Positions 12,832-22,697 of a DNA stretch of 64,000 bases are shown one piece after another. Position 1 is the stretch's first letter; each line of letters opens with the position of its first letter. A program made the translations under genes and the position numbers. Below the pieces are notes generated by a model. It worked only from the letters and a program-made list of their open reading frames with translations, ran no database searches and was not told the origin of the DNA. The stretch is from Luteimonas aquatica (GTDB lineage Bacteria > Pseudomonadota > Gammaproteobacteria > Xanthomonadales > Xanthomonadaceae): positions 506,381-570,380 of the forward strand of contig NZ_JALBFU010000001.1 in the NCBI RefSeq assembly GCF_022662575.1, read 5' to 3'.

Positions 12832-13593
12832 ATGCAGATGCGCCAGCACACCCCCAAGCGTCCGCGCGGCCCGATCGCCCTGGCCGCGATGTCGCTGCTG
12901 TTCCTGATCGGCATCGCCGGCTTCCTGGCGCTCGGCATCTGGCAGGTCGAGCGCCGCGCCTGGAAGCTGGCGCTGATCGAACGCGTGGAATCGCGCATCC
13001 ATGCCGCACCGGGCGCCGCGCCCGGGCCCGCCGAATGGCCGCAGGTTTCCGCCGCCCGCGACGAGTACAGGCACGTGCGCCTGCGCGGCCGCTTCCTTTC
13101 CGGGCACGACACGCGCACGCAGGCGGTCACCGAGCTCGGCCCGGGTTTCTGGCTGCTGTCGCCGTTCCGCACCGACGACGGCGCGCTCGTGCTGGTCAAC
13201 CGCGGCTTCGTTCCTGCCGGCTGGAACGAGTCCGCGGATGCGAATCCCGCCCTCGCCGCCGGCGTGACCGGCCTGCTGCGCATCAGCGAGCCGGGCGGCG
13301 GCTTCCTGCGCAGGAACGACCCCGCCCGCGACCGCTGGTATTCGCGCGACGTCCAGGCCATCGCCGCCGCGCGCGGACTGGGGCCGGTGGCGCCCTATTT
13401 CGTCGACGCCGACCGGGAAGGCGCCAGGGACGCGACCGGGCCGCGCTGGCCGGTCGGCGGCTTGACGGTGGTGCGCTTTCGCAACAACCATCTGGTGTAC
13501 GCGCTGACCTGGTTCGGCCTCGCGTTGATGGTCGCGGCCGCCGCCTGGCGCGTGGCGCTGGAGGAGCGCAGGCGTCGCGCCGCGCTCCTCTGA
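12832..13593 (+). CDS. SURF1-family oxidase assembly protein
   Basis: A 253-residue inner-membrane protein with one helix at each end (about residues 17-35 and 228-246) and a periplasmic domain between, the SURF1 architecture. The N-terminal GIWQVERRAWK and the C-terminal RNNHLVYALTWFGLAL are the family's two conserved blocks. SURF1 proteins help insert haem into haem-copper oxidases, which fits its place 58 bases after cyoD. Confidence 0.88.
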   Translation: MQMRQHTPKRPRGPIALAAMSLLFLIGIAGFLALGIWQVERRAWKLALIERVESRIHAAPGAAPGPAEWPQVSAARDEYRHVRLRGRFLSGHDTRTQAVTELGPGFWLLSPFRTDDGALVLVNRGFVPAGWNESADANPALAAGVTGLLRISEPGGGFLRRNDPARDRWYSRDVQAIAAARGLGPVAPYFVDADREGARDATGPRWPVGGLTVVRFRNNHLVYALTWFGLALMVAAAAWRVALEERRRRAALL

Positions 13594-13655
13594 CCCTCTC
13601 CCGCAGGCGGGAGGGCGCTATTGTTGCGGCCCGACCGCGTTCGTCCGGAAAAACG

Positions 13656-14993
13656 ATGCAGGCCCCCCCCCCAGCCCGCCCGCTCCAGTACGCCGCACCC
13701 TCGGTGATCGGGCCGCGCGGCGGCGTGCCGTCGATGCATCCGCTGATCCAGTTGCGCTGGATCGCGGTGATCGGGCAGATCGCGACGATCGTCTTCGTCC
13801 ACTACGGCTTCGGCATCCGCCTGCCGTTGCTGCCGATGGCGGTGGTGCTGGCCTGCCTGGTGGCCTTCAACCTGTTCAGCATGCTGCGCTGGCGCAACCG
13901 CGAGGAAGTCGGCAACAACGCGCTGTTCCTCGCCCTGCTGGTGGACGTGGTCACGCTCACCGCCCAGCTCTACCTCAGCGGCGGCGCCGCCAATCCCTTC
14001 GTGTTCCTGTACCTGCTGCAGGTGGCGCTGGCGGCGGTACTGCTGCGCTCCTGGTCGAGCTGGGCGGTGGCCGCGGCGGCCAGCCTCGGCTTCATCGGGC
14101 TGGCCATGTTCCCGGGCCCGGTGACGATCCCCGCGCACCCGGACCGCGGCCTGGCCGATCCCTACGTGCAGGGCTTGCTGCTGTGCTTCGTGCTCAACGC
14201 CACGCTGCTGGTGGTGTTCATCACCCGCATCGGCCGCATGCTGCGCGCCCGCGACGCGCGCCTGGCCGACCTGCGCCAGCGCGCCGCCGAAGAGGAGCAC
14301 ATCGTGCGCATGGGCCTGCTCGCCTCCGGCGCCGCGCATGAGCTGGGCACGCCGCTGGCCACGCTGTCGGTGATCCTGGGCGACTGGAAGCGCATGCCGC
14401 CCTTCACGCAGCAGCCCGAGCTGCTGCAGGAACTGGACGAGATGCAGACCCAGCTCAACCGCTGCAAGGCCATCGTCACCGGCATCCTGCTCTCGGCCGG
14501 CGAGGCGCGCGGCGAGGCGCCGGCGCAGACCACGGTCGGGGCCTTCCTCGACGAGCTGGTCGCCGAATGGCGCAACACCCGCCCGGTGCGCGTGTTCGAC
14601 TACGCCAACCGCTTCGGCGAGAATCTGGCCATCGTCTCCGATTCGGGCCTGAAGCAGATGATCTGCAACGTGCTCGACAACGCCCTGGAAGCCTCGCCCG
14701 GCTACGTCGCGCTGGAGGCCACGCGCGAGGGCGACGACCTGGTGCTGACGGTGCGCGATGCCGGTCCCGGTTTCGCGCCGGCGATGCTGTCGCACTTCGG
14801 CAAGCCCTACCAGTCGAGCAAGGGACGCCCCGGCGGCGGCCTCGGCCTGTTCCTGGCCCTGAACGTGGCGCGCACGCTCGGCGGCAGCATCACCGCCGGC
14901 AACCGCGAGGCCGGCGGCGCGGCCGTGGTCGTCACCCTGCCCCTGTCCGCGCTCACCCTGACGGACCCTCCCCTCAATGGACATGCGCGATGA
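13656..14993 (+). CDS. regB: RegB/PrrB-type redox sensor histidine kinase
   Basis: A 445-residue kinase with six predicted N-terminal membrane helices including the quinone-site-like GGAANPFVFLYLLQ, a RegB hallmark. The phosphorylated His228 sits in GAAHELGTPLATL; a Cys at 270 in LNRCKAIV matches the redox-active Cys of RegB. The C-terminal ATP domain has N and G boxes (NVLDNALEAS, DAGPGF, GGGLGLF). Such kinases sense quinone redox state and control respiratory genes; its place behind the oxidase operon agrees. The start at 13656 is uncertain (13734 is possible). It overlaps the regulator gene by ATGA. Confidence 0.88.
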   Translation: MQAPPPARPLQYAAPSVIGPRGGVPSMHPLIQLRWIAVIGQIATIVFVHYGFGIRLPLLPMAVVLACLVAFNLFSMLRWRNREEVGNNALFLALLVDVVTLTAQLYLSGGAANPFVFLYLLQVALAAVLLRSWSSWAVAAAASLGFIGLAMFPGPVTIPAHPDRGLADPYVQGLLLCFVLNATLLVVFITRIGRMLRARDARLADLRQRAAEEEHIVRMGLLASGAAHELGTPLATLSVILGDWKRMPPFTQQPELLQELDEMQTQLNRCKAIVTGILLSAGEARGEAPAQTTVGAFLDELVAEWRNTRPVRVFDYANRFGENLAIVSDSGLKQMICNVLDNALEASPGYVALEATREGDDLVLTVRDAGPGFAPAMLSHFGKPYQSSKGRPGGGLGLFLALNVARTLGGSITAGNREAGGAAVVVTLPLSALTLTDPPLNGHAR

Positions 14994-15529
14994 CCGCTGA
15001 ACCGCGCCGATTGCTGATCGTGGAGGACGACCTCGCCTTCGCGCGCACCCTCAGCCGTTCCTTCGAGCGGCGCGGCTACGAGGTGCGCACGGCGACCGCG
15101 CTGGACGAGATCGCGCCGGTGCTGCGCGACTATTCGCCCGGTTTCGCCGTGGTCGACCTCAAGCTGGCAGGCGGCAGCTCCGGCCTGGCCTGCGTGCAGG
15201 CGCTGCACGCCCACGACCCGGCCTTGCTGATCGTGGTGCTGACCGGCTACGCCAGCATCGCCACCGCGGTCGAGGCGATCAAGCTCGGCGCCTGCCATTA
15301 CCTCGCCAAGCCGTCCAATACCGACGATATCGAGGCGGCGTTCGAGCGCGCCGAGGGCGACGCCACGGTGCAGCTCACCGAACGCCAGACCTCGATCAAG
15401 ACGCTGGAATGGGAACGCATCCACGAAATGCTCGCCGCCACCGACTTCAATATCTCCGAGGCCGCGCGGCGCCTGGGCATGCATCGCCGTACCCTGGCCC
15501 GGAAACTCGGCAAGCATCGGGTGAAGTGA
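14990..15529 (+). CDS. regA: RegA/PrrA-type response regulator
   Basis: A 179-residue regulator: a receiver domain (VEDD acidic pocket; Asp56 in VVDLKLAGGSSG as the phosphate acceptor; T and K in TGYAS and LAKP) joined to a short Fis-type helix-turn-helix (FNISEAARRLGMHRRTLARKL). This compact receiver plus Fis-like HTH is the RegA layout. Its start overlaps the regB stop. It probably controls the adjacent oxidase operon in response to redox state, by analogy with RegBA. Confidence 0.88.
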   Translation: MTAEPRRLLIVEDDLAFARTLSRSFERRGYEVRTATALDEIAPVLRDYSPGFAVVDLKLAGGSSGLACVQALHAHDPALLIVVLTGYASIATAVEAIKLGACHYLAKPSNTDDIEAAFERAEGDATVQLTERQTSIKTLEWERIHEMLAATDFNISEAARRLGMHRRTLARKLGKHRVK

Positions 15530-15754
15530 ACGCTGGCCGCGGCACGATGTCCTGTCCGGCCGCCTCACCGCGAATGCACGGAGGAGCGAGATTGGAAACG
15601 GGAGTATCGGCGAAGCCAACCATGCGGTCGGGGGATCTTTCGATTGCGACGACAGCCCGCTTTGCCGGCGCAGGCCGGTACGCACTAGAGGCGCAAGGCG
15701 CATGATATCGATGCCAATGCCCATCTCCTCCCCCGCCATGCCCCGGCGTTCGCC

Positions 15755-18658
15755 ATGACCACGCCATCGGTGGCGGCCCGTGCGCTGGCGGCATTCGATG
15801 CCTACGCCGAGCTGGACGAACCCGGACGTACCCAGGCGCTCGACCTGCTGCAGGTCAGCGATCCGGAACTGCATGCCGAGCTGCGCCTGCTGCTGCACGC
15901 CGATGCCCACCCGGGGCTGCTGCAGACCTCGCCGGTCGACATCCTGGCCCACTGCCAGTCGCCGGCCACGGCGGCGGGCGAAGCCGCCTCCGACGCGCGG
16001 ATGGGCACCCTGCTCGGCCCCTGGCGCATCGACGCCATCCTCGGCTCCGGCGGCATGGGCACGGTGTACCGCGCCCATCGCGACGACGGACAATACCTGC
16101 AGACGGTCGCGCTCAAGTGCGTGCGCACCGAGATCCCCTCACCCGTGCTCGCCGATGCGATCCGCAACGAGCGGCACGCGCTCGCCCGCCTCAGCCACCC
16201 CAACATCGCCTCGCTGCTCGATGGCGGCATCGATCCCCAGGGGCACCCCTGGTTCGCCATGCAGCTGGTGCAGGGCGAACCGATCGACCGTTGGTGCGAT
16301 GCGCGCACGCTCGGCCTGCGCGAGCGGGTGGCGCTGTTCGTGCAGGCCTGCGAAGGCGTGGCCTACGCGCACGGCAAGGCCACGCTGCACTCGGACATCA
16401 AGCCCTCCAACGTCCTGGTCGACGACGACGGCCGGCCGATGTTGCTCGATTTCGGGCTGTCCTCGCTGACCGCGCCCGACTGGACGCAGGCGCAGCCGCG
16501 CGTCGCGATGACCCTCGGCTACACCGCTCCCGAAGCCCTGCACGGCGCCGGGAACAGCGTGGCCGCGGACGTCTATGCCCTGGGCGCGGTGCTCTATCGC
16601 CTGCTCTGCGATCAATGGCCCGCCGATGTCATGCCCTTGCGTGCCGGGTTGCCGCCGCCACTGGAAGATCCGCGATGGCGGCCCCGGCCGCCAAGCAAGC
16701 TGGTGGCGAACATGCCGGCGAAGGCGGTCGAACTTCGCCGCGCGACCTCGGCCGCTGCGCTGCGGCGCCAGCTTGCCGGCGACCTGGACAGCATCGCCAT
16801 GAAATGCGTCGCGCCCGACCCGGCGTACCGCTACCGCTCGGTCGCCCAGTTGCAGGACGAGTTGCGCCGCTGGCTGTCGCTGCGCCCGCTGCAGGCGCGC
16901 GAGGGCGACGCGGGCTATCGGCTGCGCCTGTTCGTGCGCCGCAACAGGCTGGCCGTGGCCCTGGGCGTGGGAGTCGTCGCCTCGCTGGCGCTGGGCGCGG
17001 GCATCGCCTACCGGCACAGCTATCTTGCCGAACGGGAAGCGGAGTCGGCGCGCGACATCAATCGCCTGTTCGAGGACACAATCGGCGCCATGACCCTCAC
17101 CGGGCTGAGCCAGGCACCGCTGGCGTCGGCGGAAATGCTGCGGGTGGCCGAGCGTCGCCTGCGCGAGCGAGGCGCCTCGGCGCCTCCTCCGATCCGCGCC
17201 CTGGGCCTGATGGCGCTTGCCAGGAACTACGCCACCCTCGGCGACTACCGCCATGCCATGAGCATGGTCGAGGAAGTCCAGGGCATGCATCTGACGCAGG
17301 CCGACGAGCAGGCCGGCCTGCACGCCACGCTCGCGCGCCTGCTCAACATCCAGTCGCGCTATCCGGAAGCCGCGCGCGCGGCGAACACCGGACTTGAGGC
17401 CGCCAGGGAATTGGACGGCCTGGATGGCGACATGGCGCGCCTGTCGCTCACCACCGAGCTGGCGCGCGCGCAATGGGGCATGGCGCGGCTCGACGATGCC
17501 AATGCCACGCTGAACCAGGCGCTGGCCTCGGCCGAGGCGATGGCGTCGCGCGACCCCGTCCCCCTGGCCGAACTGCTGACCCAGCGCGGCGCGTGGCGCG
17601 CGCAACTGCTGCACTATCAGGACGCCGAACGCGACCTCGCGCGCGCCATCCGGCTGACCGAGAAAAGGGATCCGGTCGCCGCCGACAACGTCCGCGCCGA
17701 ACTGGCGCATACGCTGTATCTGATCGGCAAGGGCGAGGGAGCGATGGCCGTGGCGCAGACCCTGCTCGCCAACCGGCGCCGCATGCTCGGCGAGAACCAT
17801 CCGGAAACCGGCAAGGCCTGGGTGCGCCTGGCCGAGAGCCAATACACCAACTCGCAGCTTTCCGCGGCCATGGACTCGGCAAAGAAGGGCGAGGCCATCC
17901 TGCGCACGGTGCTCGGCCCCGAACATCCGGAGGTCGGCCAGGCGCTGCAGGTGCTCTCCAGCGTGCATCTGTTCCTGGGCGAGCACGCGGCCAGCCTGGA
18001 CGAAGCCCGGCGCGCGTTCGACATCGCGATGCGGGCGCATGGCCCCTCGCACCAGGAAACGATCATGGCGATGCGCGGCCTGGCGGCGACGCTGGCCAGC
18101 AAGGCTTCCCAGAACCCCGGCAATCCGAAGCCCTGGCCGGAGATCATCGACCTGTTCACGCGCGTGGTCGGCGAAAGCGAACGGCAAGGCCTGCCTGCGT
18201 GGGGCGCACGCCTGATGCTGATCAGGGCGCGCCTGCGCTACGGACAGGACCAAGGAGCCGATGCCGAGCTCGAGCGCATCGCCACCGCCCTGACCAAGCT
18301 GCTTGGCCCCGGCAACGATCGCGCCCTGCATGCGCGCTATATCCAGGTGGAGCTGTATCAGAAACAGAACCGGCCGCAGGATGCCGAGCGCGCCGCCCGC
18401 ATCCTGCTGCGCAACGCGGAACAGGCGCTGCCGAGCCTGGCCGGATCCTCGATGGTGTTCAACTCGCACGACATCCTCGGCGACATCGCGCTCGCGCGCG
18501 GCGACAGCGCGGCCGCGCGCGCGCATTGGCAAAAGGCTTCCGAAGTCGGACAGCAGCTCGGCGCCACCAGGCAGACGGCGGTGGTCGGCGTGCAGAAGAA
18601 GCTGGCGATGCTGGAGCAGACGTCCGCTGCGACGGCCATGAAGCCGCGCGGGCCATGA
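15755..18658 (+). CDS. membrane Ser/Thr protein kinase with TPR sensor half
   Basis: A 967-residue Hanks-type kinase. A short leader is followed by the kinase domain at about 88-370: glycine loop GSGGMGTVY, catalytic Lys in VALKC, catalytic loop HSDIKPSN (about 210-218, Ser where Arg is usual) and DFG near 232. One membrane helix (about 400-420) leads to a 540-residue tetratricopeptide-like region with repeats such as EAARAANTGLEAARELDG and PEVGQALQVLSS. The kinase is thus cytoplasmic and the TPR part periplasmic. It converges on an ECF sigma gene whose family works with such kinases. HSD instead of HRD may mean activation-loop-independent activity. Confidence 0.88.
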   Translation: MTTPSVAARALAAFDAYAELDEPGRTQALDLLQVSDPELHAELRLLLHADAHPGLLQTSPVDILAHCQSPATAAGEAASDARMGTLLGPWRIDAILGSGGMGTVYRAHRDDGQYLQTVALKCVRTEIPSPVLADAIRNERHALARLSHPNIASLLDGGIDPQGHPWFAMQLVQGEPIDRWCDARTLGLRERVALFVQACEGVAYAHGKATLHSDIKPSNVLVDDDGRPMLLDFGLSSLTAPDWTQAQPRVAMTLGYTAPEALHGAGNSVAADVYALGAVLYRLLCDQWPADVMPLRAGLPPPLEDPRWRPRPPSKLVANMPAKAVELRRATSAAALRRQLAGDLDSIAMKCVAPDPAYRYRSVAQLQDELRRWLSLRPLQAREGDAGYRLRLFVRRNRLAVALGVGVVASLALGAGIAYRHSYLAEREAESARDINRLFEDTIGAMTLTGLSQAPLASAEMLRVAERRLRERGASAPPPIRALGLMALARNYATLGDYRHAMSMVEEVQGMHLTQADEQAGLHATLARLLNIQSRYPEAARAANTGLEAARELDGLDGDMARLSLTTELARAQWGMARLDDANATLNQALASAEAMASRDPVPLAELLTQRGAWRAQLLHYQDAERDLARAIRLTEKRDPVAADNVRAELAHTLYLIGKGEGAMAVAQTLLANRRRMLGENHPETGKAWVRLAESQYTNSQLSAAMDSAKKGEAILRTVLGPEHPEVGQALQVLSSVHLFLGEHAASLDEARRAFDIAMRAHGPSHQETIMAMRGLAATLASKASQNPGNPKPWPEIIDLFTRVVGESERQGLPAWGARLMLIRARLRYGQDQGADAELERIATALTKLLGPGNDRALHARYIQVELYQKQNRPQDAERAARILLRNAEQALPSLAGSSMVFNSHDILGDIALARGDSAAARAHWQKASEVGQQLGATRQTAVVGVQKKLAMLEQTSAATAMKPRGP

Positions 18659-18679
18659 ACGGCGCCGGCGCCGCTTCTC

Positions 18680-19336
18680 TCAGATCGCCGCCTGCCCCAT
18701 CTCCTCGCCCAGCTGCTTGAGCAGGTAGGCCCGCGCACGGCGCCAGTCGCGGCGCACGGTGCGCACGGTCAGGCCGAACACGTCCGCGATCTCCTGTTCG
18801 CTCAGGCCGCCGAAGTAGCGCAGTTCCACCACCTGGGACAGGCGCTCGTCGATGTCCGCCAGCCCGTCCAGCGCCTGCCCGAGCACCAGCAGCTGTTCCA
18901 GGCGCGGCTCCGCGCTCGGCTCGGCGACGTCGTCGAGGTTGGCCTTCTCGGCGCCGCCGCCGCGCTTGTCGGCGAGCATGCGGCGGGCCTCGTCTAGCAG
19001 CACGAAGCGCATGGCGCGCGCAATCAGCGCGGTCAGGTGCGGACGGTTCTCCACCGCCAGCTTGGAGCCGGACAGGCGCAGCCACGTTTCGCTGATCAGC
19101 GAGGTGGGCGACAGGTGCGGGCCGATCTGCTGGCGGATCTGCGAGCGCGCGATGCGATGCAGGTCCTCGTAGAGCAGCGCGTAGATCCGATGCCAGGCGT
19201 CCTCGCGGCCGTCGTGGGCGGCGACCAGCAGCTGCGTGACGCTGTCGGCGAGTTCGGCGTCGGCGCGCACGGGCGCCGGCGGGACGACATCGTGTCCCGC
19301 CGAGGGACATGCCTCAGCCTGATTTCCCCGGGTCAT
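18680..19336 (-). CDS. ECF sigma factor (TIGR02999-like, kinase-linked type)
   Basis: A 218-residue sigma-70 family factor with regions 2 (about 30-100) and 4 (about 155-215; LSEQEIADVFGLTVRTVRRDW is the region-4 helix-turn-helix). In region 2.2, where most ECF factors have an acidic D-A-E-D RNA-polymerase contact, it has S76-P-T78-S79 before LISETWLRL. That pattern marks ECF groups that lack an anti-sigma factor and depend on a Ser/Thr kinase. No anti-sigma gene is nearby, but a kinase gene ends 21 bases away on the other strand. The start at 19336 (MTRGNQ) is preferred; the frame opens at 19390. Confidence 0.85.
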   Translation of the reverse strand: MTRGNQAEACPSAGHDVVPPAPVRADAELADSVTQLLVAAHDGREDAWHRIYALLYEDLHRIARSQIRQQIGPHLSPTSLISETWLRLSGSKLAVENRPHLTALIARAMRFVLLDEARRMLADKRGGGAEKANLDDVAEPSAEPRLEQLLVLGQALDGLADIDERLSQVVELRYFGGLSEQEIADVFGLTVRTVRRDWRRARAYLLKQLGEEMGQAAI

Positions 19337-19415
19337 GTCCGGAGTGTGCCCCGAAGACCGAAACGAATACAAACGGCCGGCACCATTCACGTTGCGCCCC
19401 TGTCACGGAATTGTC

Positions 19416-20372
19416 ATGAACAGAATCGGCGACCCCATCCCCGGCAGCCACGTCTTTTCGGACGTCCTGCGTTTTCCGCCCTCCGGCTTGCCTGGACGGC
19501 CCCTGCCCGGCGGTCTCGACGAGGCCATCGGACAGTTGCGCACGAGCGTCGAGCACATGGGGACCAGGCTCGAGCAGGCCTCCAGGACATTGCCGCAGCA
19601 GCCGGGCGGCCGGGCAGATGCGCTCTCCAGCCGGCTGAACGACGCCCTCGCCCGCGGCGACCGCGCCGTGCGAGGAATTTCCTCGGCCTCGACGCCGGCC
19701 ATCGAGCGCTTCCCGCTTGCGCAGAGCGACGATGTCGTGCGCGACGGCGTGGCCGCGATCGACCAGGTCACCAACGCCGTCAGCCAGGCCGCCACGGCGG
19801 TCGGCGACATCGCCTCCGTGGTGCAGCGGATCGCCGCCCAGATCAGCGCCATTCCCGGCCCCGTGGGCCAGGTCGCCGGCGCGGTATCGCAGGTCGCAGG
19901 CGCGGTCGATCGCCTCTCCGGTGCCGTCGACCAGTTGTCCGGCACCACCGACCGGCTGGCCAATGCGGCCGGTCGCGGCGATCCGGCCGAGCTGCTCGGC
20001 GAGGTGGTCGGCGCGGCCAGCGAGATCGCCGACGCGGTGTCGCAGATCGCGCTCGCCGTGGGCGACGTCGCCGATGCGGTGGAGAACCTGTCCGGCCTGG
20101 TGAGCTGGATCCCGGGCCCGGTCGGCCAGATCGCGGGCGCGGTCGGCAATATCGCCGGCGGCGTCGACGAGATTTCAGGCGCGGTGAGCAGCCTCTCCGG
20201 CGTGGTGAGCCGCATCTCCGGGGCCGCGGCGGATGGCGACTCCGCCGGCGCGCTGTCGGAGGCCTTCGGCTCGATCGACGACGTGGTCGACGCGGCCGTG
20301 CAGGTGGCCGGCGCCGCCGGCCGGATCGCGATCGCGGTCGGCCAGATCTCGGCGGCTTCCTCGGGTCTCTGA
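19416..20372 (+). CDS. protein of tandem 86-residue heptad-rich repeats
   Basis: A 318-residue protein of unknown function. Residues 114-199 and 200-285 are two repeats of exactly 86 residues, and 286-318 starts a third. Each repeat has a central IPGPVGQ turn (146 and 232) followed by heptads such as SQVAGAV, DRLSGAV, DEISGAV. The composition (Ala, Val, Gly, Ser, Ile, Asp) and 7-residue spacing suggest long amphipathic helices, perhaps membrane-surface binding or self-associating. No signal peptide or cysteine is visible. The start at 19416 is the first Met with protein-like sequence. It is divergent from the ECF sigma gene, 79 bases apart, and may be its target. I recognise no family. Confidence 0.7.
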   Translation: MNRIGDPIPGSHVFSDVLRFPPSGLPGRPLPGGLDEAIGQLRTSVEHMGTRLEQASRTLPQQPGGRADALSSRLNDALARGDRAVRGISSASTPAIERFPLAQSDDVVRDGVAAIDQVTNAVSQAATAVGDIASVVQRIAAQISAIPGPVGQVAGAVSQVAGAVDRLSGAVDQLSGTTDRLANAAGRGDPAELLGEVVGAASEIADAVSQIALAVGDVADAVENLSGLVSWIPGPVGQIAGAVGNIAGGVDEISGAVSSLSGVVSRISGAAADGDSAGALSEAFGSIDDVVDAAVQVAGAAGRIAIAVGQISAASSGL

Positions 20373-20380
20373 CGCCACCG

Positions 20381-21673
20381 TCAGGACCGGCCCGCCCCGT
20401 CGGCCGAGCCGTGCTCGATGCGCCGATGGGCGCGCGCCAGGGCGCTGCCGTTGAAGGCCCACAGCAGCGCCAGCGCCGCGCCGAGCAGCGCCGCGATCGT
20501 CGGCTGCTGCGCCAGCGCGTCGACGCCGGCCTTGAGCCAGCTGCTCAGCGCGTCGGCGCCGCGATAGACCACCGAGTCGACGAAATTCTTGGCCTTGTAC
20601 TTGGCCTCGGGCGTGGTCACGGTCCACAGCATCTCGCGTCCCGGCCGGATGAAGGCGTATTCGCCGGCGCGCCGCACCACCATCACCACCGCCAGCACGG
20701 CGAAGGTCGGCGCCAATGCCAGCCACAGGAAGCCGAACACCGTGATCAGCGGCACCGCCACCAGCAGCACGCCCACGCCCAGGCGCTGCGCCAGGCGCCC
20801 GGTGACGAACAGCTGCGACAGGATCGCCAGCGCCTGCACGACCGCGTCGATGGTGCCGAACACCTGCGTCTGCGTGCGCTTGTCGGGGAAGTTGAGCTCC
20901 ACCAGGCGCGCCTGCTCGAAATAGAGGAAGGTGGTCACGCTCGCCAGCAGCAGCACGAACGCGGCGATGCCGAGCATGAACGGCGAGCGCAGCACGTCGG
21001 TGGCGCCGGCCAGCGGGCTGCCGCCGAGCGGGCGCTGCCGCTGCGCGACGTCCTCCGCCGAGAGCGGCCGCGCGTCGCGCCAGCGCTGCGCCGCGCGCGC
21101 GGCGAATGCGGCCGCCAACAACAACAGCGCCGACAGCAGCAGCAGTCCGGCATGGCCGACGCTCTGCACCAGGCCCACGCCGAGCAGAGGCCCCACCAGC
21201 CCGCCGAGGCTGGCGCCGGCCGCCATCAGCCCGAACAGCCGCCTGGCCTGCCCGGTCGCGAACAGGTCGACCAGCACGCTCCAGGCCACCGAGATCGCGA
21301 TCATGTTGAAGACCGACAACCAGATGTAGAACACGCGCGCCAGCCAGACGTCGTCGGGCGAAGCCAGGAAGCCGGCGGCGAAGGCGGCCAGATTGATCGC
21401 GAAGAAGCCGAACACCCAGTAGAGGATGCGCCGGCGCTGCACGCGCGCGGCGATCCAGCCGAACAGCGGCATCGCCGCCAGCGTGGCGACGAACGTTCCG
21501 GTGAACAGCCATTGCAGGTTGTTCACGCCGCCGGTGATGCCCATCGTCTCGCGCACCGGACGCAGCATGAAATAGCCGGCGAACAGCAGGAAGAACAGCG
21601 AGAAGCCGGCGACCACGCCGCCGATCTCGTCGTCGGCCAGGCCGAACAGGCGCGCGAGCAGGCGGCGCGGCAT
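20381..21673 (-). CDS. ATP/ADP-carrier-like MFS transporter
   Basis: A 430-residue inner-membrane protein with about 11-12 helices. The segment GYFMLRPVRETMG near residue 34-46 and the layout resemble the nucleotide-transporter (NTT, ATP/ADP antiporter-like) branch of the major facilitators found in free-living bacteria. The gene starts 10 bases after the aldo/keto reductase stop, so the two form one transcript. The substrate is unknown; free-living members need not carry ATP. Confidence 0.7.
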   Translation of the reverse strand: MPRRLLARLFGLADDEIGGVVAGFSLFFLLFAGYFMLRPVRETMGITGGVNNLQWLFTGTFVATLAAMPLFGWIAARVQRRRILYWVFGFFAINLAAFAAGFLASPDDVWLARVFYIWLSVFNMIAISVAWSVLVDLFATGQARRLFGLMAAGASLGGLVGPLLGVGLVQSVGHAGLLLLSALLLLAAAFAARAAQRWRDARPLSAEDVAQRQRPLGGSPLAGATDVLRSPFMLGIAAFVLLLASVTTFLYFEQARLVELNFPDKRTQTQVFGTIDAVVQALAILSQLFVTGRLAQRLGVGVLLVAVPLITVFGFLWLALAPTFAVLAVVMVVRRAGEYAFIRPGREMLWTVTTPEAKYKAKNFVDSVVYRGADALSSWLKAGVDALAQQPTIAALLGAALALLWAFNGSALARAHRRIEHGSADGAGRS

Positions 21674-21683
21674 CTCCCCGCCC

Positions 21684-22697
21684 TCAACCCAGCGCCGCGA
21701 CCAGGGCCGCGCGCTGCTTCGCGTCGAGCACGGCGCCGATGCCGGCTCGCAGATTGTCGGTCTGGTTGTCGGGTTTGGAGGTGGCGGGGATCACCGCCGT
21801 CACGGCGGTCGGACCGAGGGCGAATTTCAGGAACAGCTGCGCCCAGGACGTCGCGCCCACCTCCCCGGCCCACGCCGGCACCGGCTTGCCCTTGACCCGG
21901 GCGAAGAGCCGTCCGTCGTCGAAGGCGCGGTTGACCATCACCGCGATGCCCAGTTCCTGCGCCAGCGGGAAGATGCGCTGCTCCGCCCCGGGCGCGGCGG
22001 GGGAATAATTGATCTGCACGAAATCGGGCTTGAACCGGCGCATGGCTTCGGCCAGTTCCTCATGCGCGCGCTCCAGGTAATGGGTCAGTCCGACGTAGCG
22101 GGTCCTGCCCTGCTGCTTCAGCTCCCGCGCCAGCGCCAGCTGCGTCCGCGTGTCGCCCAGATTGTGGACCTGCAGCAGTTCCACCTTGTCGGTGCGCAGG
22201 TCGCGCAGCGACTGCTCGAACTGCGCCAGGCCGGCCTCGCGCCCGTCGACGCCGGAGAGCTTGGTCGCCAGGAACAGCTTGCCGCGCACGCCCGCCTCGG
22301 CCACCAGCGCGCCCAGCACCCGCTCGGCGTTGCCGTAGGTCGGCGCGGTATCGATCACGGTGGCGCCGGCGTCGACGAAGCGCCTGAGCACCTCGCGCAG
22401 CGCGTCGCGGCTGCCGCGCGCCGCGTCGCCGTCGAAATCGGCGACCTCGAACGAGCCCGACGTGCCCATGCCGATCGCCGGCACCTGTTCGCCGCTGGCG
22501 GGAATGGTGCGCTTGAGCAGCGTGCCCGCGAACGGCGCGGCGGCGGTTTTCGCGGCTTCGCCGCCGCGCGCGGCCGGCGCGGCGTCGTGGCTGCAGGCGG
22601 CCAGCGGCGACAACGCGAGGGCGGCCAGCGACAGCGTACTGCCGGAAATGAAGGCCCGGCGCGAAAGTGGATATGACGGCAGCGGATGTGACGGCAT
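21684..22697 (-). CDS. Tat-exported aldo/keto reductase
   Basis: A 337-residue aldo/keto reductase with a twin-arginine signal (SRRAFISGS, hydrophobic stretch, SPLAACS, which could also be a lipobox). The catalytic tetrad is visible as Asp and Tyr in VIDTAPTYGN, Lys in LATKLSG and His in LLQVHN. Export by Tat implies it folds with NADP(H) in the cytoplasm. It is first in a two-gene operon with an NTT-like transporter 10 bases downstream. The substrate is unknown. Confidence 0.82.
   Translation of the reverse strand: MPSHPLPSYPLSRRAFISGSTLSLAALALSPLAACSHDAAPAARGGEAAKTAAAPFAGTLLKRTIPASGEQVPAIGMGTSGSFEVADFDGDAARGSRDALREVLRRFVDAGATVIDTAPTYGNAERVLGALVAEAGVRGKLFLATKLSGVDGREAGLAQFEQSLRDLRTDKVELLQVHNLGDTRTQLALARELKQQGRTRYVGLTHYLERAHEELAEAMRRFKPDFVQINYSPAAPGAEQRIFPLAQELGIAVMVNRAFDDGRLFARVKGKPVPAWAGEVGATSWAQLFLKFALGPTAVTAVIPATSKPDNQTDNLRAGIGAVLDAKQRAALVAALG

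Follow-up and report, generated by a model that had tools for sequence, protein, structure and literature searches.

Organization of the kinase-sigma locus

The window analysed here, a stretch of 64,000 nucleotides of the Luteimonas aquatica genome (assembly GCF_022662575.1, contig NZ_JALBFU010000001.1, positions 506,381 to 570,380), contains adjoining genes for a Hanks-type Ser/Thr kinase, an extracytoplasmic function (ECF) sigma factor and a protein with internal repeats. In an initial annotation, the three genes were regarded as one signalling island. The kinase-sigma half of this proposal is borne out by homology, motif and linkage, but the repeat gene did not hold up as a third member. 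The coordinates, strands and lengths given there for the three genes are all correct, and the main features are:

15755-18658, plus strand: kinase gene P0002, encoding a Hanks-type Ser/Thr kinase of 967 amino acids with a predicted transmembrane (TM) helix and a C-terminal half of tetratricopeptide repeats (TPRs)
16388-16411, plus strand: kinase catalytic loop H212-S213-D214-I-K-P-S-N, in which HSD replaces HRD according to the alignment
16949-17005, plus strand: predicted TM helix of the kinase, residues 399-417, with a hydropathy maximum of 2.27 over 19 residues
18680-19336, minus strand: sigma gene, encoding an ECF43-type protein of 218 amino acids (TIGR02999, PF07638)
19111-19100, minus strand: sigma region 2.2 motif S76-P77-T78-S79 at the DAED position, with T78 as the predicted phospho-acceptor
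19337-19415: spacer between the sigma and repeat-protein genes
19416-20372, plus strand: repeat-protein gene P0001, encoding a predicted alpha-helical protein of 318 amino acids with 86-residue repeats

The kinase and sigma genes are convergent, with 21 bp between their ends. The repeat gene is divergent from the sigma gene, and the start codons lie 79 bp apart, as annotated. A Pfam scan of the three genes and five neighbours agrees that no anti-sigma gene is present among these eight genes (12832-22697). The G+C content of the kinase-sigma pair is 0.71; at third codon positions it is 0.88 for the kinase and 0.91 for the sigma gene, and 0.95-0.96 for the neighbours. These values are near those of the neighbours, and composition does not settle whether the pair was inserted here or lost elsewhere.

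The sigma factor lacks the acidic motif of region 2.2

The sigma factor matches TIGR02999 (Sig-70_X6; 179.5 bits, cut-off 126.15) and PF07638 (Sigma70_ECF; 130.4 bits, cut-off 21.1) over nearly its full length, the two families which we take to be those matched by ECF43 members. Reading of the minus strand confirmed that S76-P-T78-S79 stands in place of D-A-E-D. For comparison, 88 sigma sequences were compiled, consisting of the window sigma, five paralogues from its own genome and 82 rows from 80 loci (the best 80 of 89), with rows below 70 bits dropped. The third motif position is Thr in 87 of the 88 and Ser in one, and residues 76-79 are invariant or almost so in an alignment of 13 sigma factors of the clade described below. 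According to the excerpts of PMC13147305 and PMC8999054 available to us, a kinase partner is the hallmark of ECF43; the acidic DxxD of region 2.2 is lost, and the charge is supplied by phosphorylation of a conserved Thr, which is kept in 88%. In the window sigma, the DxxD is likewise lost, Thr occupies the phospho-position, and a Hanks-type kinase gene adjoins in a linkage that recurs in relatives. Judged from its sequence, the protein is an ECF43-type sigma factor, an assignment made by families, motif and kinase neighbour. The choice of T78 as the prime acceptor, already made in the initial annotation, agrees with both the conservation of Thr and the published ECF43 pattern, and T78 is the predicted site of phosphorylation.

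The kinase keeps its catalytic residues in a non-RD loop

Pfam matches to Pkinase and TPR_12, together with the sigma family matches, confirm that a TPR-type kinase converges on an ECF sigma factor. The best match in the PDB is 9EED (PknS 1-364; E 4e-53), which is PknS of Xanthomonas citri according to the excerpt of PMC13147305. By alignment, the kinase retains the canonical catalytic set K121, D214, N219 and DFG (232-234). The Arg of the HRD motif, present in PknS, is replaced in the HSD loop, which makes this a non-RD kinase outside the canonical RD Hanks pattern. Because Lys121, Asp214, Asn219 and DFG are kept, an active kinase is the likelier reading despite the non-RD loop. The protein has a single strong hydrophobic stretch (residues 399-417), and the TPR half would be periplasmic by analogy with PknS, in line with the topology proposed earlier. 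A role as a defence kinase was also considered and rejected; the PADLOC matches (PD-T4-6, MAD6) span about the kinase domain only, and the Pfam domains of the neighbours do not suggest defence.

Sigma factor and kinase are linked and diverge together

Of 51 other genomes of the genus, 7 were found to have a kinase match at E<=3e-136, and these 7 also have a sigma match at E<=6e-52, each time on the same contig as the kinase. The gap between the two matches is below 0.8 kb in five of these genomes, 4.8 kb in G248 and 7.7 kb in G244. In the family, at least 33 of 247 genomes (own included) have a kinase match at E<=1e-105, and all 33 also have a sigma match at E<=1e-44, which occurs in at least 34 genomes. 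The genome counts are lower bounds, as the searches scored the top candidates per genome (in the family, 3 for the kinase and 12 for the sigma factor), and the family thresholds were chosen after the genus results had been seen. Pairwise distances of sigma factors and kinases are correlated (Mantel r 0.84 for 67 pairs, r 0.82 within the 30 clade pairs; in both cases 0 of 999 permutations were as high). The ECF43 features and this correlation are consistent with the annotated idea of a kinase-activated sigma factor of the EcfP-PknT type, in which phosphorylation is predicted. The genome of L. aquatica encodes six TIGR02999 sigma factors above the cut-off; the other five each have an HRD kinase downstream, and SPTS is found in this sigma factor only.

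In L160 (17618-17875), L161 (1918-2133), L162 (8600-8767) and the Pseudoxanthomonas locus L169 (7756-8010), a frame of 55-85 amino acids resembling the kinase N-terminus lies just 3' of the sigma gene, and the full kinase is several kb or farther from it. These short frames look like the remnant of a rearranged pair.

A clade of S[P/A]TS sigma factors with mostly non-RD kinases

The motif S[P/A][T/S][S/A] occurs at the region 2.2 site in 39 of the 88 sigma rows. In quick trees of 83 sigma rows, 67 of them with a kinase, the 30 S[P/A]TS rows with a kinase in reach are monophyletic, with a support of 100 in both the sigma and the kinase tree (SH-like approximate likelihood-ratio test, SH-aLRT). 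The trees leave out L239, L245, L246 and the second copies in L220 and L233, all of which lie outside the clade and have HRD. The HRD Arg is missing from 24 of the 30 clade kinases (HQD in 15, HSD in 5, HGD in 4) and kept in 6; outside the clade, all 42 kinases have HRD, and 7 further outside rows have no kinase in reach. A previous count used a different but overlapping set of loci (81 once identical stretches had been dropped) and is not independent of the later one; in it, 30 of 35 clade kinases were non-RD, against 3 of 42 elsewhere (two with HLD, one with HCD). The association between S[P/A]TS sigma factors and non-RD kinases is thus strong, though with exceptions, and only a few evolutionary changes underlie it (three changes between RD and non-RD on the kinase tree). 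A literature search, including a search for RD terms in the available part of PMC13147305, found no description of this association, although one may have been published.

The convergent gene order is found in seven rows (window, L167, L168, L181, L183, L185, L188), which form one clade in both trees (SH-aLRT 93 for the sigma factors, 100 for the kinases). The pairs L154/L167, L155/L181, L156/L185 and L157/L183 are, judged by length, one contig each under two numbers. The other 32 of the 39 rows comprise 3 divergent pairs, 20 in which the sigma gene is followed by the kinase gene, and 9 without a kinase in reach.

The S[P/A]TS sigma factors and their mostly non-RD kinases might constitute a distinct Lysobacterales branch of sigma-phosphorylating systems, a tentative idea that we would rather bet against. 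Its kinases would be released via the periplasmic TPR half without activation-loop autophosphorylation and would act on a Thr of sigma region 2.2 that mostly follows Pro (S-P-T-S); its pairs would be portable modules that occur in several gene orders, the convergent one among them, and are attached to varied genes for envelope proteins, adhesins and peptide export. The clade is a natural experiment, in which the presumed switch position T78 is constant and the motif and the kinase catalytic loop have changed. It could show whether the switch consists of the Thr alone and whether the kinase requires phosphorylation of its activation loop.

A different view of the unusual loop is that the pair has decayed or been rewired. 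Loss of the HRD Arg would have left a weak or constitutive kinase, and the sigma factor would be controlled by its expression level or by another kinase. This would fit the HSD loop and the convergent order, which excludes co-transcription of sigma and kinase genes; moreover, the genome holds six TIGR02999 sigma factors, including five other such pairs, and cross-talk is therefore possible. However, Lys121, Asp214, Asn219 and DFG are intact, non-RD loops recur in the clade, and sigma factor and kinase diverge together. Both frames are also open, and residues 76-79 are conserved across the clade sigma factors as stated above. We therefore regard decay or rewiring as very improbable, and prefer a working pair.

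The repeat gene probably belongs to an older locus

Next to the pair, the following genes are found:

13656-14993: histidine kinase gene, upstream of the response regulator gene
14990-15529, plus strand: response regulator gene (Response_reg and HTH_8), which lies directly 5' of the repeat gene in genome G123
20381-21673, minus strand: gene for a transporter of the major facilitator superfamily (MFS), adjoining the repeat gene in the window and in G123

The annotated period of 86 residues in the repeat protein was confirmed. Offset 86 is the best, with 42% identity over 132 residue pairs and a mean BLOSUM62 score of 2.04, which the best offset did not reach in any of 500 shuffles. A protein of G123 is 57% identical to the repeat protein, and offset 86 is likewise its best (36% identity). 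A longer open reading frame would start at 19335; the G123 alignment is consistent with the start at 19416, although it is no proof. Compared with the G123 copy, the gene is under purifying selection (nonsynonymous divergence dN 0.33, synonymous divergence dS 0.90). The repeat gene is thus real and constrained.

Among 247 family and 52 genus genomes, with 9 (family) and up to 43 (genus) first-look candidates scored per genome, a near-full-length repeat protein is found in the window genome and G123 only. The other 18 rows of the family search are partial (19.5-31.8 bits, 21-29% identical). No match at E 0.001 was obtained in a large protein set, in which the 7,996 candidates sharing most words were scored. 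Pfam, NCBIfam and PADLOC gave weak matches to MCPsignal, TigB, SlaB and ZorA, which were rejected as they fit the Ala/Gly/Val-rich helical composition. The AlphaFold model, built from 2 sequences, has a mean predicted local distance difference test (pLDDT) score of 63.9 and no PDB match at E<=0.001; its top rows (E 0.012 upward) are long-helix proteins including alpha-pore subunits, weak matches from which nothing was drawn.

The window and G123 share the order SURF1, histidine kinase, response regulator, repeat gene, MFS transporter and aldo/keto reductase, and the G123 neighbours of the repeat gene are 70-94% identical in protein to those of the window. In G123, the sigma and kinase genes are absent between response regulator and MFS transporter; its sigma-kinase matches sit on contigs C1 and C77.

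In the initial annotation, it was proposed that the sigma factor drives the repeat gene. The phosphorylated sigma factor would then transcribe the divergent gene, after the pair had landed there and taken it over or, alternatively, G123 had lost the pair. Sigma factors with adjacent targets are common; the short distance between the divergent starts and the purifying selection on the repeat gene also fit this proposal, and, with only two genomes to compare, G123 may have lost the pair. Against it, the repeat gene of G123 stands without a pair beside it, and none of the 80 sigma loci (the best 80 of 89, flanks up to 7 kb) holds a relative of the repeat protein at E 1e-3. When the proteins predicted in 26 fetched loci were compared with it, the only relative at E 1e-12 was that of G123. 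An ad hoc element seen upstream of two amidase genes of related loci (described below) was not found before the repeat gene, in a sample too small to carry weight. A three-gene circuit is improbable. The search for the same gene set in related genomes, suggested as a check, did not find kinase, sigma factor and repeat protein together in another genome; the set was seen once, and of the other genomes searched G123 alone has the repeat gene, with no pair beside it.

The set probably arose by chance, through insertion of the pair into an older locus or its loss from one; with two genomes only, the two cannot be told apart. The pair would have entered, or survived at, an older response-regulator/repeat-protein/MFS locus, which makes a bystander role the most likely one for the repeat protein; it is probably a neighbour rather than the third member of a circuit. 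This negative result corrects a guess made from adjacency.

Genes for SURF1, a PilS-like histidine kinase and a Response_reg/HTH_8 regulator (12832-15529 in the window) accompany the repeat gene in both genomes. The histidine kinase and regulator are presumably a RegB/RegA-like pair, and the repeat protein may be a component of the locus that they form.

Possible targets of the sigma factor

In five of the six other convergent loci, a gene for an N-acetylmuramoyl-L-alanine amidase (Amidase_2 and LGFP) lies on the divergent side of the sigma gene, directly beside it in L155/L181, L156/L185, L157/L183 and L188; in L168, a LysM gene lies between the two. Most of these amidases have, by eye, a signal-peptide-like start. 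The window genome also contains amidase relatives, namely C2:345758 (65% identical, query 17-707 of 708), C13:249705 and a match to the LGFP half (amidase residues 443-708) at C2:504021-504806, which is 74% identical, lies in an open frame of 447 amino acids and is located some 1.6 kb to the left of the first window position and about 17 kb from the kinase gene. It is conceivable that the sigma factors of the convergent clade control the divergent amidase (in one case with a LysM protein) and that the amidase relatives are the regulon in L. aquatica. We consider this rather unlikely. The five amidase loci are one clade, and the neighbour may be common by descent alone; furthermore, Lysobacter sp. 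ISL-50 (L154/L167), the nearest relative of the window, has a catalase instead of the amidase. From a by-eye reading of aligned regions 5' of the sigma and amidase genes in the convergent clade, too small a sample to decide the matter, no element common to the clade amidases and the window-genome amidase loci emerged. The ad hoc element GTTTCGTTNCGTC, seen by eye upstream of two amidases, is absent at one mismatch from the loci of three of the window-genome relatives, again in too small a sample. A second ad hoc pattern has a one-mismatch match near 19367, which was not judged meaningful.

No sigma-70-type promoter match was found in 15400-20500, spacer included. The sequence ATTCG was noticed by eye about 25-35 nt 5' of the sigma start on the sigma strand. 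It occurs in the window (about 19360-19370) and, of the five further sigma genes whose upstream regions were compared, in L155, L156, L168 and L188 but not in L154. It is a possible candidate promoter element of the sigma gene.

Other clade pairs adjoin genes of various kinds. A frame for a YadA-type protein of 3,264 amino acids with stalk and head repeats is found in L159 (2096-11890), SpaA/DUF11 surface proteins in L105 (11053-13374), L160 (3625-5637) and L166 (2166-6131), and a large repetitive frame of 2,643 amino acids, putatively also of surface type, in L163 (2-7933). In L164 (11771-16000, genome G013) and L165 (10491-16000, genome G048), the pair lies by several small similar peptides with possible double-glycine leaders; L164 also has an ABC transporter with a C39 peptidase domain, and the one small peptide scanned gave no Pfam match. 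This is a possible exported-peptide cluster. In the genus-mates L100 (7220-13650) and L101 (8095-11043), small paralogous genes, some with lipoprotein-like starts, lie between the divergent kinase and sigma genes, in L100 together with a patatin/Omp85 protein.

A probable phosphorylation-switched transcription module

We think it likely that the kinase-sigma pair is a transcription module of the ECF43 kind, switched by phosphorylation and belonging to the S[P/A]TS lineage, with the repeat protein as a bystander. As synthesized, the sigma factor would be inactive, since the acidic residues that hold the beta-prime subunit of RNA polymerase are missing from region 2.2. The periplasmic TPR half of the kinase would receive a cue from the envelope, whereupon the cytoplasmic kinase domain would phosphorylate T78. 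The negative charge on T78 would then allow the sigma factor to bind core polymerase. Its targets would lie elsewhere in the genome, and it is a fair guess that they encode envelope or secreted proteins.

Several points weigh against this reading. The HSD loop is without the Arg of canonical Hanks kinases, and the SPTS motif differs from the ECF43 consensus QTTA; S76 and S79 may be further acceptors. Linkage is also imperfect: the nearest strong kinase match lies about 5 kb from the sigma match in G206, 10 kb in G242, 15 kb in G078 and more than 500 kb in G117, and 9 of the 39 clade rows have no kinase inside 9 kb or inside the fetched DNA. Finally, the excerpt of PMC13147305 reports that EcfK T51A is still functional in X. 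citri and that a linker site can substitute; by analogy, T78 may not be the sole switch.

Comparison with known systems

To our knowledge, there are very few worked examples of sigma factor activation by direct phosphorylation, namely EcfP and EcfK. The families TIGR02999 and PF07638 extend beyond the S[P/A]TS subclade: TIGR02999 is matched by six sigma factors of the genome, one of which has SPTS.

In EcfP of Vibrio parahaemolyticus, the partner of PknT, the motif is STTA, the second Thr of which is phosphorylated, and a gain of charge by phosphorylation was proposed (excerpts of PMC8999054 and PMC13147305). The likeness to the window sigma, taken from these descriptions rather than from a sequence comparison, lies in a motif without an acidic residue and with Thr at the same third position (STTA versus SPTS). 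The EcfP regulon provides polymyxin resistance, whereas for the window sigma a regulon of envelope or secreted proteins is a guess.

The closest counterpart of the kinase is PknS, whose kinase domain is its best solved match. Differences concern the catalytic loop (HRD in PknS, HSD here), the motif (QATE in EcfK, SPTS here; PMC13147305, in part) and the gene order, which is convergent in the window. EcfK-PknS is located in a type VI secretion system (T6SS) cluster according to the available part of PMC8999054, and no T6SS gene is present among the eight scanned window genes. EcfK also uses T106 in its linker (excerpt of PMC13147305); the linker of the window sigma is acidic (LDDVAEP), but a counterpart of T106 could not be placed in it. 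As far as the excerpts describe them, both systems combine a TM Hanks kinase, extended at its N terminus and ending in TPRs, and an adjacent ECF sigma factor without the full acidic motif of region 2.2. It is thus sound to regard the window pair as a member of the known ECF43 kind with a variant motif and a variant catalytic loop, in which phosphorylation of the sigma factor is predicted from the protein sequences.

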